Shown here piece by piece: positions 10,471-36,090 of a DNA stretch of 36,090 nucleotides. The notes under the pieces are model-generated. The model did not search any database. It worked only from the letters and a program-made list of their open reading frames with translations, and was not told the origin of the DNA. The translations under genes and the position numbers were made by a program. Position 1 is the stretch's first letter; each line of letters opens with the position of its first letter. This DNA is from Bacillota bacterium (GTDB taxonomy: Bacteria; Chloroflexota; Dormibacteria; Dormibacterales; Dormibacteraceae): positions 1-36,090 of the forward strand of contig JAJPKS010000206.1 in assembly GCA_021323605.1 (NCBI GenBank), read 5' to 3'.

Positions 10471-11188
10471 TGGTGATCACCTCCCCGGTCACGGCGGACG
10501 AGCGCGGCCCGAGTAGGAACGCGATCACCTCCGCGACCTCCTCTGCGCGGACGAGGCGGCCGAGCCGGTAGCCGGCGATGATCCGCTCCCGCTCGGCCTC
10601 GGGAACGTCATCGATCATCTCGGTGGCGGTGAGGATGGGGGCGACAGCGTTGGCCCGGACCCCCCTCCGGGTCAGCTCCCGTCCCAGGTACCGGACCAGG
10701 GTGACCACGCCACCTTTGGCGGCGGCATAGCCGGGGCCCATGCTGCCGCCGGTGATACCGGCGATCGAGGAGACACAGACGATGCTGCCGCCGCCCTTGG
10801 CCAGCATGCCGGGCACCACCGCCTTCGCGCAGAGGAAGGGACCGGTGAGGTCCACGCCGATCACCTCTTCCCATTCCTCCAACGTCTGCTCGACCAGGGT
10901 GTGGCGGCGGTTGAGCCCCGCGTTGGCGACCAGCCCCCTCACGGTTCCCAGCTCGGCGGCGATGGTCTCCACCATCCGGAAGACCTGCTCGGGGCGGCTG
11001 ACGTCGGCCTGGTAGCAGGCGGCGCGGACGCCCTTCCTGCGGATCACTTCCGCGACCCGCTCGGCCGCTTCCCGCTCGGTCCGGTAGTTGATGGCGATGT
11101 CCCAGCCGTCGTCGGCCAGCCGGATCGCGGTGGCGGCTCCGATCCCGCGGCTGCCGCCGGTGACGAGCGCGGTCCCGAGGCCACTCAC
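10460..11188 (-). CDS. SDR family oxidoreductase
   Basis: Classical short-chain dehydrogenase/reductase of 242 residues, likely NAD(P)-dependent, FabG-like. The cofactor motif TGGSRGIG is at the N terminus, NAG follows near residue 85, and the catalytic Ser (CVSSIAG) and YAAAK motif are intact. I chose the GTG at 11188, which overlaps the stop of the upstream gene by four bases (GTGA). A longer frame to 11398 adds only a low-complexity leader. It is the second gene of a three-gene minus-strand unit with the UGSC-associated protein and the HIT protein. The substrate is unknown. Confidence 0.88.
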   Translation of the reverse strand: MSGLGTALVTGGSRGIGAATAIRLADDGWDIAINYRTEREAAERVAEVIRRKGVRAACYQADVSRPEQVFRMVETIAAELGTVRGLVANAGLNRRHTLVEQTLEEWEEVIGVDLTGPFLCAKAVVPGMLAKGGGSIVCVSSIAGITGGSMGPGYAAAKGGVVTLVRYLGRELTRRGVRANAVAPILTATEMIDDVPEAERERIIAGYRLGRLVRAEEVAEVIAFLLGPRSSAVTGEVITIGA

Positions 11189-12189
11189 AGTCCGACCGTG
11201 ACGGGGACCGATCCCCCGCTCCAGTTGGGCACGAAGGTCTGCTTGATCCCCACGCCGCCCGCGACGAGCACGTGGACGTCCTCCGGCCTCACCGCCACCG
11301 CCAGCTCGCGGTCGCCCTGCCGCCAGCGAGCGCGTCGGTGCAGCTCGCGCTTGACGTCGGCCTTGGAGAACCCGGCACCGGAGAGGCTCGCCGCCCACTC
11401 CGGGCTCATCAGGACGAAGGGGTGGCCGCCGCCCGCCAGGCGGCGGTCGAGCGTGTAGAGGGCGGCGGGCACCGCCATCGCCTCGGCCATGGTCTGGAGC
11501 AGGTCGCCGGGCTCCGAGGACTCGCCGTTGAAGACCTCGAGCACTCCCGAGATCCCGACTACGGTGACCGTGCTCTCATGGGGCGCGAAGCCACGCTCGA
11601 CCGAGTAGGGCTCCCAGGGGCTCTGCGCCTCGTTCTCGGCGAAGCAGAAGCCGTACTTGGCGGGCTGTCCCATGGTCGCCATGTCCCCGAGGCCCTCGCG
11701 GGCGCCGCCCAGCGCCCGGCAGACGAGCGAGAGCGCGCGGCCGGTGACGGCGTTGGAGCGGTTGCCGGGGCCGAGGCAGTTGCTGTCGCCCCGGTAGCCG
11801 TACGCACGGGCGGCGGGCCCGTTGACCACGACCATCAGGGCGGCGTTGCCGGTGGTGGTGAGCACGCCGAGGGCGTTCAGCTCGGGGGCCGCGAGGGCGC
11901 GGACCGCGGCCAGCACCACCGGCAGCTGGCGCGCGTCGCAGCCGGCCAGGGCGGCCGCCACGGCGACGGCCTCCACGGTGGCCGCGCCGCGGAGGGGCGG
12001 GATGAGCGCTAGCGGCTCCTTCGTCCCGGGCGCCGCGGCGAGCAGCTCGCGCAGCCGGCGCGAGGAGGGCGGGGCGAGGGGCAGGCCGTCCCAGAGCCCG
12101 CGGGCCTCGAGCTCGGACTCCAGCTCGGCCGCCGGCATGGTCTCCCAGCGGGCGACGTCGGCGACGCTCAGGATCGCGTTCTCCTGCAT
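11185..12189 (-). CDS. Free-standing UGSC-associated domain protein
   Basis: Protein of 334 residues clearly homologous to the C-terminal two thirds of the selenoprotein at 19603-21204. Shared blocks include LWDGLPLAPP / WGDGLPVLPP, LGPGNRSNAVTGRA / YGPGNRMNATIGRA, and PAKYGFCFAENEAQSPWEPY / PAKYTYCFAENLEESPWGPY. It has no selenocysteine and no N-terminal UGSC module. I know no biochemical function for this domain. The gene begins with ATG at 12189 and heads a unit with the SDR and HIT genes. Tandem operator-like sites lie 30-67 bases upstream, of the type found at the selenoprotein operon, which suggests co-regulation with its fused paralog. Confidence 0.82.
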   Translation of the reverse strand: MQENAILSVADVARWETMPAAELESELEARGLWDGLPLAPPSSRRLRELLAAAPGTKEPLALIPPLRGAATVEAVAVAAALAGCDARQLPVVLAAVRALAAPELNALGVLTTTGNAALMVVVNGPAARAYGYRGDSNCLGPGNRSNAVTGRALSLVCRALGGAREGLGDMATMGQPAKYGFCFAENEAQSPWEPYSVERGFAPHESTVTVVGISGVLEVFNGESSEPGDLLQTMAEAMAVPAALYTLDRRLAGGGHPFVLMSPEWAASLSGAGFSKADVKRELHRRARWRQGDRELAVAVRPEDVHVLVAGGVGIKQTFVPNWSGGSVPVTVGL

Positions 12190-16887: not shown

Positions 16888-18123
16888 ATGTCGCAGGCAC
16901 GCACGGGCTTCAGGCCGCTTGCCGGCCTCAGGGTCCTCGACTGGACCGAGGGCGTGGCCGGGCCGTATGCCTGCCAGACGCTGGGCGATCTCGGCGCCGA
17001 CGTCATCAAGGTGGAGCGGCCGCAGGGCGACTGGGCTCGTGGGGTGGGAACGGGCCCGGCCCAGGGCGGCCCCGACTTTCGGGCGCTGAACCGGAACAAG
17101 CGCGACCTCTGTCTCGACCTGAGGCACCCCGAGGCAGTCGAGGTGGCGCTCCGGCTTGCGGAGCGCTCGGACGTGATGGTGACCTCGTACCGGCCCGGCG
17201 TGACCGAGCGGCTGGGGATCGGCTGGGAGGCGGTCCACGCCCGTGCTCCCCGGCTGATCTACGCTCGCATCTCCGGGTTCGGGTACGGCGGCCCGCTCCA
17301 GCATCGCGCCGGCAGCGACACCATCCTGCAGGCCGTGTCAGGGCTGATGAGCCAGGTCGGCGACCCCGACGGCGAGCCGCAGCGGGTCGGCATCCCGGTG
17401 GTGGACTTCGTGGCCGCGCGGGACGCGGTCACGGGTGTGCTGGCCGCGCTGCTCGCCCGAGAACGGGGACAGACGGTCGTCGCTCCCGTCGATGTGAGCC
17501 TCTACGCGAGCGCCGCGGCGCTGCAGGCGCAGGTCTGGCAGAAGTACTTCGAGGCGGGCACCGTCCAGCGCCGGAGCGGTCATCGCAACGCAGGAATCGC
17601 GCCGGCGGGCCTCTTTCCCACCAGCGACGGCCGCCACATCGCGGTGGCGGTGCTCCGGGACGAGCACTGGCAGAACTTCTGTACCGCCATCGGCCGCCCG
17701 GACCTGCTCGACGACCCGCGCTTCTCGAGCAACGGCTCCCGGCTCCGCCACCGGCCGGAGCTGGAGGCCGAGATCGTGCCCGTCTTCAGGTCGCGCAGCT
17801 TCGATGAGTGGGTCCGGATTCTGGGTGAGAACGACGTGCTGGCGGGACCGGTCACCGAGGTGCCGGACATCGCCGGCGACGAGCGCCTGCGCGGTGCGCT
17901 GCCACTGACCCGGCTGCCGGAGGGGGCACTGGGTCCCTCTGCGCCCGCGATCGCGCTCCCGATCGCGGTCGGGGGGGTGCTGCCGGGGCCTGAGCGGGTG
18001 CTGGCTCCGCCCGCGCGGGGGCAGCACACGCGGGAGGTGCTCCGGGAGGTGGGCTATGCCGAGGCCGAGATCGAAAGGCTGGTCGCCTCGGGGGCGACGC
18101 CGGAGGTGGCCCCTGGGGACTGA
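16888..18123 (+). CDS. CaiB/BaiF family (class III) CoA-transferase
   Basis: Class III CoA-transferase of 411 residues, which moves CoA between carboxylic acids through an aspartyl-CoA intermediate. The N-terminal signature (LRVLDWTEGVAGPYACQTL, then LGADVIKVE) is typical, and the expected catalytic Asp is D173 in IPVVDFVAARD. LNRNKRDLCLDLRHPE is another family block. ATG follows AAGGA by a normal spacing, eight bases after the transporter gene, so it belongs to the UbiD/transport operon. It probably activates the imported acid or its product as a CoA thioester for the crotonase and thiolase-like proteins encoded downstream. The CoA donor is unknown. Confidence 0.92.
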   Translation: MSQARTGFRPLAGLRVLDWTEGVAGPYACQTLGDLGADVIKVERPQGDWARGVGTGPAQGGPDFRALNRNKRDLCLDLRHPEAVEVALRLAERSDVMVTSYRPGVTERLGIGWEAVHARAPRLIYARISGFGYGGPLQHRAGSDTILQAVSGLMSQVGDPDGEPQRVGIPVVDFVAARDAVTGVLAALLARERGQTVVAPVDVSLYASAAALQAQVWQKYFEAGTVQRRSGHRNAGIAPAGLFPTSDGRHIAVAVLRDEHWQNFCTAIGRPDLLDDPRFSSNGSRLRHRPELEAEIVPVFRSRSFDEWVRILGENDVLAGPVTEVPDIAGDERLRGALPLTRLPEGALGPSAPAIALPIAVGGVLPGPERVLAPPARGQHTREVLREVGYAEAEIERLVASGATPEVAPGD

Positions 18124-18705
18124 CCTCCGGAACGTCTCGGATCCGAGCCTCGCGTTGACCGCCGCCGTTCGCGTCGGGGTCGGGAGTGGTCGGTCATGAC
18201 CTGCCGCACGGTGGAGGCGCTCGTCCCAATTCTGTCGGCCGCCGTGGGGTCGTGAACGCCTCGGAACCAGGAGCGGACGAGGTGAGCGTCGACCTCCGCG
18301 TCAAGGATCGGGCGGGCGACACCTGACTCCTGGCCGTGATGCGGACGAGAAGCGCTCCCGGCCGAGGCATCGTCGGAGTGGTGGCTGGAAGGGGCCCGGG
18401 TGACGGGGATCGGGATCGGCTCGCGGGACGGTCGGCAGGTAGGAGCCCGGGATACCTCGGGGACGCTCTCCGGTATGGGTGACCTCGAGGGAGCTGCCGG
18501 CCAGGATGCAAATATGGTCGAGGGCGAGCGTCGCCGGCCGCGGACGGAAGGGGTTCGAGCGGGCCACCCATGAGCCGAGCCTCTCCAGCGGGAAGGGGAC
18601 GGGTGAGCGACGGCGGATGAAGCCCAACCCGTGCTCGCCAGCGACCGGCCGTGCCCTCGGATCGGAGTGCCGGTCCGCAGAGTCCCCTCGACCCGGTTGG
18701 CTTCG
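18124..18705. other. Intergenic region before the selenoprotein operon
   Basis: No gene I can support. Minus-strand frames (for example 18301-18714) have no recognisable domain. A perfect 12-bp palindrome CTCGGATCCGAG lies at 18136-18147 just after the CoA-transferase stop and could be part of a terminator, though it lacks a loop and T-tract. The right end leads into the promoter at 18706. Confidence 0.4.
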
Positions 18706-18776: not shown

Positions 18777-18792
18777 AGCCGGAGGTCAGCTC

Positions 18793-19041
18793 TTGAGGAT
18801 CACGCGAGAGGCCGTTGGCCAGGTTCTGGAACCGCTCGCCGAGGGCTTCCGGGCCGACGGCGCCGATCTCGCCGTGGAGGAGGCGTCCGAGGAGCAGGTG
18901 ACGGTGCGCCTCGTCGTCTCCCCGGCGACCTGCCACGAGTGCATCATGCCGGCCGAGGCCATCACCCGCGTCCTCGAGAGCGCGGTGAGGGAGAAGTTCC
19001 CCGAGCTCGAGCGCTTCCTCTTCGTCGACAGTCGCCAATGA
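18793..19041 (+). CDS. Small Nfu-like (NifU C-terminal domain-like) protein
   Basis: Protein of 82 residues resembling the C-terminal Fe-S scaffold domain of NifU/NfuA. It has the FRADGADL block, a VTVRLVV strand, then a CxxC pair (TCHEC) followed by MPAEAITRVLESAVREKFPE, which matches the order in Nfu proteins. GGAGG at 18781-18785 lies seven bases before the TTG start. It is the first gene of the long operon and is followed, after 49 bases, by the 2Fe-2S subunit of a molybdenum hydroxylase. I infer that it helps load Fe-S clusters into that subunit. Another role for the CxxC, for example in redox work with the selenoprotein, is possible. Confidence 0.7.
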   Translation: MRITREAVGQVLEPLAEGFRADGADLAVEEASEEQVTVRLVVSPATCHECIMPAEAITRVLESAVREKFPELERFLFVDSRQ

Positions 19042-19090
19042 CACCGACCGGTCCGGCTCGCGCTCGCGGGCCACGCTGGCGAGGTTGGAA

Positions 19091-19606
19091 ATGGAACAGC
19101 CCGTGACCACAGCTCCGCGGCCCCGGACCATCCACTTCACCGTCAACGGGGTCCCACAGACGGCGATCGTCGAGCCGCGGCGCTCGTTGCTCGACTGCCT
19201 GCGCGACGACCTCCATCTGCATGGGACCCATGTCGGCTGCGAGCACGGCGTCTGTGGCGCCTGCAACGTGCTGGTGGATGGCGAGGTAGTCCGCTCCTGC
19301 TTGATGCTCGCCGTTCAAGCCGATGGCTGCGAGATCCGGACCGTGGAGGGGCTGGAGGCCGGCGGGGCCCTGAGCCCGATGCAGGAAGCCTTCTGTCGCT
19401 ACCACGCCCTCCAGTGCGGCTACTGTACGCCGGGGATACTGATCACGCTCGAGGGGCTACTCCGGGAGAACCCGCAACCGAGCGACGAAGAGCTGATCGA
19501 CGCCCTTTCCGGAAACCTCTGCCGGTGCACCGGCTACCAGCAGATCCTCGAAGCCGCAAGGGCGGTGATCCGAGGCGAGACGGCTTCCAGGGAGGTTCCC
19601 GTATGA
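19091..19606 (+). CDS. Molybdenum hydroxylase 2Fe-2S small subunit
   Basis: Small subunit of 171 residues of a xanthine dehydrogenase-family enzyme. The plant-ferredoxin-type cluster ligands are in VGCEHGVCGACNVLVDG plus the later RSC, and the second helical cluster ligands are QCGYCTPG and LCRCTGY. GAGG is six bases before the ATG at 19091; a TTG six bases earlier is also in frame. The stop overlaps the selenoprotein start (ATGA). The FAD subunit is seven genes downstream at 25769, and large subunits lie only at the two ends of the window, so the three-subunit enzyme is split over separate units. Confidence 0.95.
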   Translation: MEQPVTTAPRPRTIHFTVNGVPQTAIVEPRRSLLDCLRDDLHLHGTHVGCEHGVCGACNVLVDGEVVRSCLMLAVQADGCEIRTVEGLEAGGALSPMQEAFCRYHALQCGYCTPGILITLEGLLRENPQPSDEELIDALSGNLCRCTGYQQILEAARAVIRGETASREVPV

Positions 19607-21204
19607 CCACCACGATCGAGATCCTCAATCCCACCTTCGCCCGCGTCTCCGGACAGGAGCTGCGCAAGGCCCCCTTCCCTCGCCTCGAGGAGGGTACGAA
19701 GGTCCGCATCGGTTTCCTCAACAACCAGAAGCCGAACACACAGGAGCTGCTTGCCCTGGTGGAGTCGGGGTTGCGGGAGCACTACCAGGTTGAGTCGCGG
19801 ACCTTCTTCAAAGGCGATGCCGCCCATCCCGCGCCGCCGGAGGTGATCGAGGAGCTCAGCCGGTTCGCCGATGTGGCGGTGCTGGCGACGGCCGATTGAG
19901 GGTCGTGCACGTCGTGGAGTCTCCACGACTCGGTCGAGCTCCTGAAGCTCGGAACCCCGGTGGTCACGGTGGCCACGGCGGCCTTCATGCCGCTCGCCCA
20001 GATCGAATCGAAGGCCTGGGGCTGGCAGGTACCGATCGCCAGGATCGAGCACCCGTTGGGCGGCGTCCCCACCGACCGCCTCGGGTCACGGGCACGTGAG
20101 GTGGTCGAGTATTTCGTCTCCCAGGCTCGAGGCCAGGAGGGTGGCAGGGCCGGCGGTACCGCTCACGCCGTCGGCGAGCCGGTGCTCTCGGTCCCCTCCG
20201 ATCCCTGGGCGTTCTTCGACTTCATCCAGTCGAAGGGGTGGGGCGACGGCCTCCCCGTTCTTCCGCCCACGCCCGACCGGGTCGAGCGGATGCTCCGCTC
20301 GGCAGGCGTGCCCGCGGATGCCTTCGTCGGCTTCATCCCGCCCGAGAAGCTGCACTGCACGGCCCGGGACGTGGCCGCCAACTGCGTCCTCGCGGGCCTG
20401 CCCGATGCCGCCTTCCCGGTCGTCCTGGCGGCGATCAGGGCGGGGCTCCAGGAACGATTCAACTTGCTCGGGGTGCTGGCCACCACGAATCCCTGCGCGA
20501 CGACCGTGCTGGTCAGCGGACCGATCGCGAAGGAACTCGGGATGAACGCGGGCGCCAGCGTCTACGGACCCGGCAACCGTATGAACGCGACCATCGGTCG
20601 CGCTGTCCGGCTGGCCCTCCAGAACCTGGGCGGTGCCTGGCCTGGCCCAGTGGACAAGAGCACGCAGGGGAGCCCGGCCAAGTACACCTACTGCTTCGCC
20701 GAGAACCTGGAGGAGAGCCCCTGGGGGCCGTACCACGTGGACCGGGGCTTCAAGGAATCGGATTCGACGGTGACCATGATCGCACCCGAAGGTCCGCACA
20801 ACATGCACGATCCGGCGAGCACGAGCGGTGACAACTTTTTGCAGTACGTGATCGGCAGCATGACCCACTGTGGCCACAACAACCTCTACCATCGTGGCGA
20901 CACCTTTCTGGTGCTCTGCCCCGAGCACGCGACCATGCTGGCCCGTGACGGCTACGATCGTGCGCGAATCCGGCAAGAGATCTTCGCGCGGGCGCGAGTT
21001 CCCGCTCGGGCGATGGGCCGGGAGGCGTTCGAACACTTCACCTCGCATTGGCCGCGGAAGGAGAAGATCGACTTCGAGACCGGGACGCTCTCGATCGTTG
21101 ACGCCCCGGAGGAGATCAACGTGGTGGTCGCCGGCGGCCCTGGCAAGCACTCCAGCTGGCTGCCGACGTTCGGCCTCACCTACTCGACGATCGAGAAGCT
21201 GTGA
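19603..21204 (+). CDS. UGSC family selenoprotein with fused C-terminal domain (TGA read as selenocysteine)
   Basis: One reading frame of 533 residues interrupted only by TGA at 19897-19899, codon 99. The codons after it encode Gly-Ser-Cys-Thr-Ser, so the peptide reads ADUGSCTSW, the UGSC motif of a known bacterial (seleno)protein family. The protein before it (ILNPT start, KVRIGFLNNQKPN, FADVAVLATAD) and after it (LHDSVELLKLGTPVVTVAT, HPLGG) matches one continuous UGSC domain of about 175 residues, so the TGA is not a real end. U99 and C102 would form a UxxC redox pair. Residues about 203-533 are a second domain, also found alone at 11185-12189. ATG overlaps the stop of the 2Fe-2S gene, and the end overlaps the crotonase start. 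Selenocysteine machinery (selA-D) is not in the window. The function of the family is not established. Confidence 0.9.
19911..19929 (+). promoter_or_regulatory. Candidate bacterial SECIS hairpin
   Basis: Directly after the in-frame TGA, GTCGTGG (19911-19917) and CCACGAC (19923-19929) form a perfect 7-bp stem with the loop AGTCT. The loop begins 18 bases after the TGA and has G as its second base. Both fit the published pattern for bacterial SECIS elements, and the loop resembles AGGUCU of E. coli fdhF. Confidence 0.7.
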
Positions 21205-21974
21205 GTATCGACTTCGAACTCGAAGATGGCATCGCGACGGTGACCATCAACCGGCCCGAGCGGCTGAACGCGATGGACACCGAACACTACCGTCTGCTCT
21301 CCGAGGCCTGGAAACGGGTCCGCGACGACCCCGAGGTGCGGGTCGCCATCGTGACCGGCGCGGGGGACCGCTCCTTCACGGTCGGGGCCGACCTGAAGAC
21401 GCACGTGGGGGCCGAGGTCGAGCTGGCCGAGCACTGGCTCACCCAGAAGGACCAGATCCTGAACCGCGGGCTCGAGGTCTGGAAGCCGGTCGTGGCGGCC
21501 GTCAACGGCTACTGCCTGGGTGGCGGAATGACCCTCCTCTTCGCCACCGACATCCGCGTCGCGGCCGCCCACGCGACCTTCGGGCTCCCCGAGGTGAAGC
21601 GCGGAATCGTGCCCGGCAACGGCGGCACCCAGCGGGTGCTCGACCAGCTGCCCTGGGCGATCGGCATGGAGCTGCTCCTGACCGGCGACCCCATCGACGC
21701 CGAGACCGCCGCCCGCTGGGGGTTGATCAACGAGGTGGTCTCTGCCGATCGCCTGATGGAGGTCGCCCGAGACTACGCACGGCGGATCGCCGCCAACGCA
21801 CCCCTCGCCGTGCAGGCGGCGAAGGAGCTGGCCGTTCGCGCCCGCGACACCGACATCAACACCGGCCTCCGGATGGAGCAGTCGATGAACCGGCTGCTCT
21901 CCACCAGCCAGGACGTGAGGGAGGGCACCTCGGCCTTCGCCGAGAAGCGGCCGGCGAGGTTCGCCGGACGATGA
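21201..21974 (+). CDS. Enoyl-CoA hydratase/isomerase (crotonase) family protein
   Basis: Crotonase-fold protein of 257 residues acting on acyl-CoA thioesters. The oxyanion-hole regions (FTVGADLK and NGYCLGGG) are present. Of the two catalytic glutamates of classical hydratases, the second is kept (E131 in GLPEVKRGI), but the first is Thr (T111 in GGGMTLLF), so simple water addition may not be the reaction; isomerase, hydrolase or lyase activity is possible. GTG overlaps the selenoprotein stop by four bases (GTGA). It lies between the selenoprotein and the thiolase-like gene in the operon, consistent with processing of a CoA ester made by the CoA-transferase. Confidence 0.9.
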   Translation: MSIDFELEDGIATVTINRPERLNAMDTEHYRLLSEAWKRVRDDPEVRVAIVTGAGDRSFTVGADLKTHVGAEVELAEHWLTQKDQILNRGLEVWKPVVAAVNGYCLGGGMTLLFATDIRVAAAHATFGLPEVKRGIVPGNGGTQRVLDQLPWAIGMELLLTGDPIDAETAARWGLINEVVSADRLMEVARDYARRIAANAPLAVQAAKELAVRARDTDINTGLRMEQSMNRLLSTSQDVREGTSAFAEKRPARFAGR

Positions 21975-25768: not shown

Positions 25769-26632
25769 ATGAAGCCGGTCGCCTTCGACCTGCGCCAGCC
25801 TGGGACCGTGGACGAAGCCGTCGAGTTGCTGACCGGCGACGGCGAGGTGAAGGTGCTGGCCGGCGGCCAGAGTCTGGTGCCCCTGCTCAACTTCCGGCTC
25901 GCCCGGCCTGAGCTACTGGTGGACATCAACCGGATCTCTGAGCTGCAGTACGTCCGCGAGGAGGCGGGCGGGCTCGCGGTCGGGGCGCTGACCCGGCAGC
26001 GGGCGCTGGAGCGGAGCGAGCCGGTGGCGCGGCTGGCGCCGCTCGTCGCCGAGGCCCTACCATTGGTCGCCCACGTCCCGATCCGAAACCGGGGCACGCT
26101 GGGCGGAAGCCTCGCCCATGCCGACGCCGCGGCCGAGCTCTGTGCCGTGGCCCTGGCGCTGGACGCCGTACTGGTGGCCGTCAGCCGGAGGGGCCGGCGT
26201 GAGATCCCGGCCGCCGAGTTCTTCCTGGGGCCGTTCACGACCGCCCTGGAGCCGGACGAACTCCTGATCGAGGTCCGTTTCCCCCGGCTGCCCGCCTCGA
26301 CCGGCTGGGCCTTCGAAGAGGTCGCGCGCCGGAAGGGCGACTTCGCCATGGTGGGGGTGGCGGTGGTGCTGGGTGTGGGTGCCGATGGCTCGGTCGTGCA
26401 GGCGCGGCTGGCCTACGCCTCGATGGGACCGACGCCCTTGCGGGCGGGCCGCGCCGAGGCGGCGCTCACCGGCCGGACGGCGGGGCCGGAGGCCTTCGCG
26501 GAGGCGGCCGAGCTGGCGATCTCCGAGCTGGAGCCCACCGATGACATCCACGCCGACCGGGAGTACCGGCTCCACGTGGCCAGGGTGCTCACCCGGCGAG
26601 CGCTGGCCCGCGCCCTCGAGCGCGCTCGGTGA
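25769..26632 (+). CDS. Molybdenum hydroxylase FAD-binding medium subunit
   Basis: FAD subunit of 287 residues of the xanthine dehydrogenase/CoxM family, passing electrons from the 2Fe-2S clusters to the acceptor. Both FAD motifs are visible: VLAGGQSLVPLLNFRL and IRNRGTLGGSLAHADAAAE. GGAGG about eight bases before the ATG. It is in the same operon as the 2Fe-2S subunit at 19091, but seven other genes lie between them, an unusual split. The large subunit at 33726 or the one at the left edge would complete the enzyme. Confidence 0.94.
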   Translation: MKPVAFDLRQPGTVDEAVELLTGDGEVKVLAGGQSLVPLLNFRLARPELLVDINRISELQYVREEAGGLAVGALTRQRALERSEPVARLAPLVAEALPLVAHVPIRNRGTLGGSLAHADAAAELCAVALALDAVLVAVSRRGRREIPAAEFFLGPFTTALEPDELLIEVRFPRLPASTGWAFEEVARRKGDFAMVGVAVVLGVGADGSVVQARLAYASMGPTPLRAGRAEAALTGRTAGPEAFAEAAELAISELEPTDDIHADREYRLHVARVLTRRALARALERAR

Positions 26633-32727: not shown

Positions 32728-33726
32728 ATGAGACGGCGGATGTCGTTGGCAGCGGTATGGGCCGCCCTGGTGGCGGTCCTGGCGGTGAGTTGCGGTGGCT
32801 CGGCGCCGTCCAGCTCCTCCTCGGGCGGGTTGACGCAGATCACGATCGGGGCCCTCACCCCGCCCTCGCTCGGCGCTTTCTTGCCACCCATCATCAAGGA
32901 CCGCCACCTCGACACCCAGAACGGTCTCGATCTCCGGTTCACCTACTCGGCCAACGACGCCTACAACCTCTCCTACACCTCGGGCCAGCTCCAGGTCGGC
33001 GGCAGCGCGAGTCTGATCCAGGAGGCACTCCGCTGGCAGCAGGGGGTGCAGTCCGTCTACCTCTTCAACGTGGTGGACTTCTGGACCGGGTTCCTCACCA
33101 AAGACCCCAGCATCAAGTCGATCACGGACCTGGCCGGTAAGACGGTCGGGATGACGACCGGTTCGACCAACTACGCCCTCTCGGTTTGGTACCTGCAGCA
33201 AGCCGGGCTCGACATCAGCAAGGTCAAGGTCGTGAACCTGACCAGCGCGGCCATGGGTCCTGCCCTCGAAGCCGGCCAGGTTCAGGCGATTGACATTCCC
33301 GAGCCCGGCTATGACACCGCGCTCGGTCTCGATCCCAACCTGCACGCGATCCCGCTCGACATCACCGGGATCTGGAAGAGGAAGTTCAACACCACGTACA
33401 TCCCCTTCCTGGGTGTCGCCGCGCTGCCCGACTGGGTGAGTTCCCACAAGAAGGAGATCCAGGAGCTCTACCGGACCTACAAGGAGGCGGCCGACTTCGT
33501 GTCCAGGAACCCCTCTCAGGCGGCGACGATCATCGCCAGGACGATCCCCGGCGGCCGAGCGGACGTGATCCAGAGACTGCTCGCCGACAAGCAACGGATG
33601 CCGCTCGACGTCGTCCCCGCACAGCAGATCAAGCCCGGACTGAAGGGCATGCTCGAGGCAGGTCTGGCGACCGGATACATCAGGTCCAGGCCGGGTAACA
33701 GCTTCCTCTACTCGGGGCTCAGCTGA
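32728..33726 (+). CDS. NitT/TauT-type ABC transporter substrate-binding lipoprotein 2
   Basis: Binding protein of 332 residues. The N terminus (MRRRMSLAAVWAALVAVL, then AVSCGG) is a lipoprotein signal with the lipobox Cys and a Ser-rich linker. The mature part has the SsuA-like layout (LQVGGSASLIQEAL, LAGKTVGMTTGSTNYALS). GGAGGGA lies at a normal distance before the ATG. The stop shares one base with the next start (TGATG). It is a distant paralog of binding protein 1 at 14050 and probably works with the ATPase at 30426. Confidence 0.9.
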   Translation: MRRRMSLAAVWAALVAVLAVSCGGSAPSSSSSGGLTQITIGALTPPSLGAFLPPIIKDRHLDTQNGLDLRFTYSANDAYNLSYTSGQLQVGGSASLIQEALRWQQGVQSVYLFNVVDFWTGFLTKDPSIKSITDLAGKTVGMTTGSTNYALSVWYLQQAGLDISKVKVVNLTSAAMGPALEAGQVQAIDIPEPGYDTALGLDPNLHAIPLDITGIWKRKFNTTYIPFLGVAALPDWVSSHKKEIQELYRTYKEAADFVSRNPSQAATIIARTIPGGRADVIQRLLADKQRMPLDVVPAQQIKPGLKGMLEAGLATGYIRSRPGNSFLYSGLS

Positions 33727-36090
33727 TGGCACAACCCCAAACCGAGTTCCGCTGGATTGGGAAACCGATGCCGGTGATCGAAGACCGGCGCTTCGTGCGG
33801 GGCCGTGGCCGCTACATCAACGACCTCGAGCTTCCGGGTATGCACCACATCGCCGTGGCCACCGCGCCGGTGGCGCACGCCCGCCTCATCTCCGTGGACG
33901 TCGAGGCCGCCCGGAGGGCGCCGGGCGTGATCGCCGTCCTGACCGGGCAGGACGTGGTCCGGATGATGGAGCCGATCCCCCAGGAGCTGCCCATCCCCAA
34001 CGTCAGGTGGTACCCGCTGGCGGTGGACAAGATCCGGGTCGCGGGCGAGTGGACGGCGGCGATCGTTGCCACCAGCCGTGCCCTGGCCGAGGACGCGGCC
34101 GAGCTGGTGAGGATCGAATACGAGGAACTGCCGCCGGTCGTGGATCCCGAGGAAGCCCTCAAGCCGGACGCGCCGGTCCTCCACGAGGCCCACGGCTCCA
34201 ACGTGGTCTGGAACGAGACCTATACCTGGGGTGACGTGGACGGGGCGATGGCCGCGGCGGACCACGTCTTCACCTACCGCTGGCGCTGGCATCGCCACTC
34301 CGGAGTCCCCATCGAGACGTTCGGTGCGGTGGCTGCGGTCGAGCCCTCGACCAACATGCTGGACATCTGGGCCTCGCACCAGAACCCGGGGATCCAGGAG
34401 GAGTTCATGAACGTCCTCCGCGTGCCGGCCTGCCGGGTGCACATGGACGTGGACGTGGGCGGGTCCTACGGGTCGAAACGGGGCCGCAAGCAGATGTACC
34501 TCACGGCCCTGGCCGCGATGGTGACCGGCAAACCCTGCAAGTTCATCGAGGATCGCCTCGAGAACATGGTCTCCAGCGACGGCCACGGTCCCGACCGCAT
34601 CTTCAACGTGAAGGTGGGCGTCTCCGGGGACGGGATCCTGCAGGCGCTGGACGTCCAGGTCATCGAGGACCTCGGGGCCTACTGCGGCCGGGGGCCCCGC
34701 CAGATCACCAAGCCGACGGCGGCGGTGGTCGGCCCCTACCGGATCCCGGCTGTCCGTTATGGCGGCTACGGTGTGCTCACCTGCAAGACGAACCAGGTGC
34801 CCTTCCGTGGCGCCGGCCAGTCACCTCACAACTTCATGCTGGAGAGGACCATCGACTCGGTGGCGCGCGAGCTGGGCATCGACCGCGTCGAGATCCGCCG
34901 GCGCAACTACATCGAGAAGGACCAGTTCCCCTACACCATCCCCAGCGGGGCGGTCTACGACTCCGGCGACTACCAGGGCGCCCTCCAGATGGCGCTCGAG
35001 AAGGCCGGCCTTGAGACACTGTTCCGGGAGCAGGAGGAGGCGCGACGCGCCGGGCGGCTGTTCGGGATTGGCTTCGGGGGGGCGATTGAACCCAGCGGTG
35101 GCATCGCCGACCCGGAGGGCGCCCGGATCCAGGTGGACCCCCGTGGCCACGTCTTCGTGACCATCGGCTTCCAGTCCTCGGCCAGAGCCACGAGAGCATG
35201 GTCACCCAGATCATCTGCGAAGAGTTTGGAGTCGAGCCGGGGGACGTCACCGTGCAGCGCGCTCACGGGCTGGGCGGCATCATCGGCGGCGCCACCACGG
35301 GATCTCGGATGACGCTGATGCTGGGGACCGCCCTCACTCGCTGCTCCGAAAAGGTCCGGGCGAAGCTGCGTTCGGTTGCCGCCCACCTGCTCGAGGTGGA
35401 GCCGGAGGACATCGTCGTCGATGGCCGAAGATTCCACGTGAGAGGCTTCCCTTCACGCGCACTCGACCTCCGGGAGGTCGCCGACCACGCCTACAACGAC
35501 CGCAGTGTGCTCGGCCCCAATGACGAGCCGGGCGTGGTCGAGGACGCGGTCTACCCAGGGCCCTTCGAGATGATCGACCGACCAGGGCCACGGCGGTTCC
35601 CGTCCTATGCCTTCGACTTCCACATCCCGGTGGTCGAGGTGGACCCGGAGACCTTCCAGATTCGCTTCCGCCGCTACATCGTCGTGCACGACTGCGGCAC
35701 GGTGATGAACCCACTGGTCGTCCACGGCTTCATTTATGGTGGCATCGGCCACGGGATCGGGGGAGCCCTGTACGAGAACTTCCTCTACGACTCGCAGGGG
35801 CTTCTCAAGGCGGCCACCTTCATGGACTACCTGATGCCGACGGCGGCCGAGGTCCCATCCATCGAGCTCTACGAGATGTGCACGCCCTCGCCTCATCATC
35901 CCTATGGCGCCAAGGGCACCGCGGAGGGTGCCTACATGACGGCACCGGCCGCGATCGCGAGCGCGGTCGAGGACGCGCTCGCACCGCTGGACGTCCGCAT
36001 CGACGAGGTGCCGATCACACCGGCCCTGTTGCTGCGCAAGGTGATGGCGGCTCGAGGGGAGGCCGCGGTTGCTAAGAGGGTGCGCGGATA
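33726..36090 (+). CDS. Molybdenum hydroxylase large subunit 2, with a one-base frameshift; runs to the window end
   Basis: Xanthine dehydrogenase-family large subunit of about 787 residues, full length for the family. It has RGRGRYINDLELPGMHH near the N terminus, PFRGAGQSPHNFMLERTID in the molybdopterin region (form II, not CO dehydrogenase) and KGTAEGAY with the catalytic Glu near the end. The frame breaks near 35180: adding one G there restores GFQSSGQSHESMVTQ, and the protein then continues without interruption to 36088. Everything else is intact, so this is either a recent loss or a sequencing or assembly slip. The last two bases (TA) may begin the stop codon. It probably completes the enzyme with the subunits at 19091 and 25769. 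Confidence 0.88.

Follow-up and report, generated by a model that had tools for sequence, protein, structure and literature searches.

Nfu carriers, which contain the NifU C-terminal domain (PF01106), include the structures CnfU (2z51), the rice NifU-like protein (2jnv) and the C-terminal domain of human NFU1 (2m5o). Such carriers are linked mainly to [4Fe-4S] clusters, whereas the CoxS-type subunits of molybdenum hydroxylases hold [2Fe-2S] clusters. UGSC (PF24696, NF041046) is a selenoprotein family that, in the sections of PMC2398784 consulted, ranks in ocean metagenomes with the more abundant families of predicted bacterial selenoproteins; the same sections reported in 2008 a domain named "Unknown_1" fused to UGSC. 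A 2026 review, in its consulted part, lists UGSC among selenoproteins with largely uncharacterised functions (PMC13188914). Better described are glycine reductase selenoprotein B (GrdB) and the D-proline reductase protein PrdB. According to excerpts of PMC3091704, the selenocysteine (Sec) of GrdB is residue 350, and thiol-selenol exchange resets both GrdB and PrdB, the partner being GrdA/thioredoxin or PrdC. No meaningful link between UGSC and a NifU-like protein was found in the open-licence papers searched.

Here we describe a small NifU-like protein encoded close to a UGSC gene. The locus lies in a stretch of 36,090 nucleotides (contig JAJPKS010000206.1, forward strand), referred to below as the window. 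The protein has 82 residues, and we coined the label NfuL for it.

Results

The NfuL gene and its neighbors

The following features of the window, all on the + strand, are used in the text below.

16888–18123, +: class III CoA-transferase, upstream of NfuL
18781–18785, +: GGAGG, resembling a ribosome-binding site, 7 nt before the TTG start (read from the sequence)
18793–19041, +: NfuL, NifU C-terminal-like, 82 amino acids, first gene of the presumed operon
18931–18951, +: codons of the C-x-E-C-x-x-P motif (C47, C50, P53); both Cys and the Pro are invariant in alignment A4
19091–19606, +: CoxS-type 2Fe-2S subunit of a molybdenum hydroxylase (ATG at 19091, alternative start at 19085; Fer2_2, 104 bits)
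19603–21204, +: UGSC-U1 fusion, read through one TGA; its start overlaps the CoxS stop
19897–19899, +: in-frame TGA, presumed selenocysteine of U-G-S-C
19911–19929, +: 8-bp hairpin, possible SECIS, 11 nt after the TGA
20200–21150, +: U1 domain, matched by no Pfam model and found beside most UGSC domains
21201–21974, +: enoyl-CoA hydratase, overlapping the UGSC-U1 stop
25769–26632, +: molybdenum hydroxylase FAD subunit, downstream

The NfuL open reading frame (18793–19041, + strand) comprises 82 codons and a TGA stop, and begins with TTG. The frame remains open upstream as far as a GTG at 18631, but relatives of NfuL begin near the TTG. The ATG of CoxS (19091) lies 49 nt past the NfuL stop on the same strand. 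The first-pass annotation had placed NfuL ahead of the Fe-S subunit of a molybdenum hydroxylase, and the Fer2_2 match to the next gene agrees with that placement. Further downstream, the + strand encodes in order the enoyl-CoA hydratase, a thiolase, an OB-fold protein, an FAA hydrolase, an alpha/beta hydrolase, an RraA-like protein and the molybdenum hydroxylase FAD subunit.

The window also holds two genes for molybdenum hydroxylase large subunits. One (33726–36090, +) is apparently frameshifted near 35230–35312, where homologous-looking sequence resumes in another frame, perhaps through an assembly error; the other (13–2055) is cut by the start of the window.

Likeness of NfuL to the NifU C-terminal domain

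The earlier proposal that NfuL is a NifU C-terminal-like protein was borne out by its modeled fold, by its matches to NifU and CnfU structures and by the position of its CxxC. The profile comparison was divided: PF01106 matched residues 10–74 of NfuL with an E-value of 1.5e-5, but the score of 25.5 bits fell under the curated gathering cut-off of 27. At E-values up to 1, the same profile matched five of nine NfuL relatives, and the NfuL part of an Arthrobacter protein scored 27.2 bits, above the cut-off. An AlphaFold2 model of NfuL, built from an input alignment of seven sequences, had a mean pLDDT of 94.7. The top two Foldseek matches to this model were CnfU 2z51 (E 1.1e-4, TM 0.70 by query) and 2jnv, the rice NifU-like protein. 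VIA-align had only NifU, NFU or CnfU structures in its four best rows (Z from 9.2 to 8.0); for 2z51 the Z was 9.2, with 75 residues aligned at an rmsd of 2.9. In the model, that is, NfuL has the alpha-beta fold of the NifU C-terminal domain.

The fold and the CxxC position are what NfuL has in common with the Nfu carriers; in the alignment, C47 and C50 occupy the position of the NifU CxxC. Conservation of these cysteines in orthologs had been named as a check, and C47, C50 and P53 were kept in all 12 of the relatives found, so the resemblance to NifU is not due to chance. The motif itself differs from that of the carriers. NfuL has C-x-[ED]-C-[ILV]-x-P (in C-x-x-C-x-x-P, the third position was Glu or Asp in 11 of 12 relatives), with the Pro three residues past the second Cys, whereas carrier Nfu proteins have CxxCP and the canonical NifU rows compared here mostly have CxGCP. 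Aligned with NifU, NfuL also carries three additional residues ahead of the CxxC, and its link is with a selenoprotein, not with genes of Fe-S assembly. A canonical NifU is separately encoded in this genome (79.5 bits). We would class NfuL as a divergent subfamily of the NifU fold, attached to a selenoprotein system that is known but uncharacterised.

NfuL relatives and their linkage to UGSC and U1

Within the phylum, profile searches turned up NfuL in ten genomes: this one (G000) and G012, G089, G188, G221, G230, G263, G270, G526 and G528. We counted as NfuL all rows of at least 65 bits, plus inspected lower rows with C-x-[ED]-C-x-x-P (G012, G089, G188, G221, G263, G270); because of these counting rules, a very divergent NfuL could be missed. 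In the search of 400 genomes, seven NfuL rows scored 89.6–106.1 bits, and the next row, at 40.1 bits, was the start of canonical NifU; many rows at 20–41 bits were canonical NifU wherever the sequence was inspected. In the phylum searches no genome had more than 13 first-look candidates scored for NfuL, or more than 8 for UGSC, so further members may be hidden. A wider contig search with a single NfuL protein returned nothing, and with alignment A1 it returned the G089 and G012 contigs again. Among 72,556 plasmid records searched with three NfuL queries, those of Arthrobacter sp. ERGS1:01 and Embleya sp. NBC_00888 (both Actinomycetota) carried NfuL, and both also carried UGSC and U1; the one further record listed (E 0.9) is annotated as a NifU family protein.

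UGSC was found within 9.3 kb of NfuL at 11 of the 12 loci. One genus, g112, supplies five of the 12 loci, and if it is taken as one lineage the count becomes seven of eight lineages. In the five g112 genomes, NfuL, UGSC and U1 are consecutive on one strand (in G526 the contig ends within U1). The gene is divergent from UGSC and adjoins it in G089, and the two lie about 3 kb apart in Embleya and 9.2 kb apart in G012. In the window UGSC follows 561 nt downstream of NfuL, with CoxS between them. Two loci carry fusions: in G188 the U1 protein has NfuL as its C-terminal part and UGSC lies just upstream, and on the Arthrobacter plasmid NfuL forms the C-terminal part of the UGSC protein itself (WP_054009256; Pfam UGSC 154.6 bits, NifU 27.2 bits). 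At the remaining locus, in G230, neither UGSC nor U1 was found on the 11.4-kb contig that carries NfuL; eight UGSC matches lie elsewhere in that genome.

Co-occurrence across genomes pointed the same way. In the 400-genome phylum sample, UGSC was present in all seven NfuL genomes against 42 of 400 overall (hypergeometric p 8.7e-8, kinship ignored), and counted by genus in five of five against 34 of 224 (p 6.2e-5, kinship likewise ignored). The reverse did not hold: no NfuL was detected in 35 of the 42 UGSC genomes of this sample, so NfuL is optional and inessential to the UGSC system. U1, by comparison, lay within 400 nt and on the same strand of 53 of the 65 UGSC domains in the fetched stretches, and within 4 kb of 59. 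The constant partner of UGSC is therefore U1, and NfuL is an optional one.

A tree of 76 U1 domains placed the NfuL-UGSC pairing in well-separated branches. The nine rows with NfuL require seven changes on it, and starred branches force six or more of these, so the pairing was made, or lost, many times; this was a quick tree with 24 open branches, and the L057 and L143 rows were left out. A second U1 domain of the window (11185–12189, − strand; 309 bits), which stands alone, falls on a long branch of the tree; no second UGSC domain was detected within the window.

The first-pass annotation had also proposed that NfuL is dedicated to delivering clusters to the adjacent 2Fe-2S subunit. CoxS, however, adjoins NfuL in this genome only. 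With the window CoxS as a phmmer query, no CoxS was found at any of the 11 other NfuL loci in the stretches fetched (about 3.5 kb, in G270, to 20 kb), nor at any other UGSC locus fetched; given these lengths, a copy farther from NfuL could have been missed. It is thus well supported that the lasting genetic partner of NfuL is UGSC/U1 and not CoxS.

The UGSC-U1 gene and selenocysteine machinery

The frame at 19603–21204 is open only when the TGA at 19897–19899 is read through. Its UGSC part scored 126.7 bits with PF24696 (cut-off 25) and carries U-G-S-C, which makes it a member of the Pfam family; with the NCBIfam model it scored 101, below the cut-off of 125. The window member is fused to U1, and the UGSC descriptions, in the parts consulted, name no NfuL component. 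We infer that U1 is the "Unknown_1" domain of PMC2398784 as presented in its consulted sections. Six further UGSC matches, one of them partial, occur in this genome.

SelB (352 bits) and SelA (507.6 bits) were both found above their cut-offs on one contig of this genome, with selA and selB adjacent (locus L208, G000:C13, 612–3777, − strand). The region of the hairpin that follows the TGA was no more stable than shuffled sequences over a 54-nt stretch (z −0.16). No tRNA-Sec was found on the selA-selB contig or among the best Rfam matches in this incomplete genome: the best match, at 49.2 bits, was called tRNA-Ser(GCT) by ARAGORN, and seven other loci were ordinary tRNAs.

A thioredoxin-like fold was suggested for UGSC in the consulted sections of PMC2398784, but the model obtained here gave Rossmann/flavodoxin-like matches instead, and we set that fold aside on this modeled evidence. 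We claim no structural relative for UGSC, because the top Foldseek TM was low and the VIA rows span many unrelated Rossmann proteins. U1, compared with the PDB only inside the 533-residue model, had no convincing match.

Likeness to glycine and D-proline reductases

The GrdB profile matched 12 of 26 UGSC members at E-values up to 1 (best 3.3e-5); the sarcosine GrdF profile matched seven of the 26 and PrdB four. For the window UGSC, the GrdB match covered profile positions 331–398 with an E-value of 0.009 and 14.9 bits, against a curated cut-off of 602. The curated cut-offs of GrdB and PrdB were not reached by UGSC, and the likeness is far below them; what UGSC has in common with these proteins is UxxC and a weak profile likeness over the Sec region. 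Their reductants (thioredoxin, GrdA, PrdC), as given in the consulted descriptions, are dithiol or thiol-selenol partners to which that of UGSC may be likened, and trxB or trxA lies near some UGSC genes. Unlike the window system, GrdB and PrdB are given neither a U1 nor a NifU-like domain in the parts of the descriptions consulted.

Gene trxB adjoins or lies near UGSC at four loci (Arthrobacter, Roseovarius, Variovorax and one G188 locus). In Arthrobacter the run is trxB-trxA-U1-UGSC-NfuL, the last two fused, and among NfuL loci in the UGSC/NfuL neighborhood table trxB was found in Arthrobacter only. This table covers 65 UGSC domains in the fetched stretches, a subset of the UGSC matches. The UxxC pair is the sole Cys/Sec kept in all 26 rows of UGSC. 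In U1 no Cys is invariant; two Cys columns are partly conserved (71 and 66 of 78 rows), and the U1 of the window lacks the first of these. On this count, neither U1 nor UGSC looks like a cluster acceptor.

Phosphosulfolactate synthase annotations occur near UGSC in Arthrobacter (L190, 5090–5878) and Natrinema (L192, 3889–4356), although the Arthrobacter gene scored 127.5 bits against a cut-off of 280. These neighbors hint at sulfonate-like or other C-S chemistry near UGSC.

Discussion

We consider it probable, on balance, that NfuL serves the UGSC selenoprotein system as an accessory subunit, redox model included, and is not a cluster chaperone for CoxS. Most likely it acts as redox partner to a UGSC/U1 reductase, through a dithiol or an Fe-S cluster; the chemistry of this role is inferred. 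UGSC and U1 would together make up a reductive enzyme whose relatives are the B subunits of the reductases for glycine and D-proline. The selenol of UGSC would attack or reduce the substrate and end as a selenenyl-sulfide with the Cys of UxxC, and the CxxC of NfuL, either as a dithiol or as a cluster held between two copies, would pass the electrons that regenerate UGSC. Thioredoxin reductase and thioredoxin, where encoded, could supply those electrons. In this genome the enzyme would act within an operon for CoA-thioester catabolism in which molybdenum hydroxylase genes also lie. Because U1 and UGSC do not resemble cluster acceptors, we favor a CxxC that hands electrons to UGSC.

More tentatively, UGSC, U1 and NfuL could constitute an undescribed Se-dependent reductase, a distant cousin of the glycine and proline reductases that acts on substrates of CoA pathways or on other catabolic substrates. 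The NifU-fold domain, gone from cluster biogenesis, might then serve as an electron-transfer subunit, resetting the Sec through a dithiol or an Fe-S cluster that bridges a dimer. We offer this fuller picture as a possibility that we hold less firmly than the accessory role itself.

The same linkage data would also accommodate a scaffold role for NfuL, with UGSC, U1 or another enzyme of the UGSC operons receiving an Fe-S cluster from it, since Nfu proteins are known carriers and the CxxC is invariant. We regard this as unlikely: the part-conserved Cys columns of U1 and the lone UxxC pair of UGSC offer little to receive a cluster, and both covalent fusions fit a standing subunit better than a shuttle. 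Delivery to the adjacent molybdenum hydroxylase by a dedicated scaffold draws on the NifU C-terminal fold, the CxxC and the position of CoxS as the next gene on the same strand. It is nonetheless very improbable, and we rejected it as the main role of NfuL because the CoxS neighbor is not conserved, being found in the fetched stretches of none of the 11 other NfuL loci; the fusion partners of NfuL are UGSC and U1, a canonical NifU is already encoded in the genome, and the [2Fe-2S] type of CoxS is at odds with the mostly [4Fe-4S] clusters of Nfu carriers.

Two further readings dispense with transfer or with partnership. CxxC pairs can bind zinc in a dimer, and the NfuL motif departs from that of carrier Nfu proteins, so the domain could be structural or targeting, its cysteines binding zinc or stabilizing a complex and moving neither electrons nor clusters; the thioredoxin system genes at some UGSC loci point instead to redox use, and we judge a purely structural role quite improbable. 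That the linkage is a by-product of catabolic islands gathering unrelated genes is suggested by neighborhoods rich in CoA-transferases, hydratases and transporters. Chance gathering of this kind would have to produce two different fusions, in two phyla, along with the six or more changes that the U1 tree forces, and it strikes us as the least credible of the explanations.

Taken as an accessory redox subunit of the UGSC system, NfuL would offer a NifU-fold protein used outside Fe-S assembly. It also helps to turn UGSC from an orphan into a testable system, with U1 as a constant partner, an optional and sometimes fused NfuL, thioredoxin neighbors and a profile link to GrdB/PrdB. The NfuL/U1 partnership makes the job of the selenoprotein easier to test, as the parts could be purified together.

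On several haloarchaeal and bacterial plasmids (L192, L193, L195, L198), Cys replaces Sec in UGSC, and such Cys forms could be used for expression without the Sec machinery. On a Paracoccus plasmid (L194, 11425–13200), selB lies close to a UGSC/U1 pair, and the annotation there breaks UGSC at the TGA into two short hypothetical proteins.
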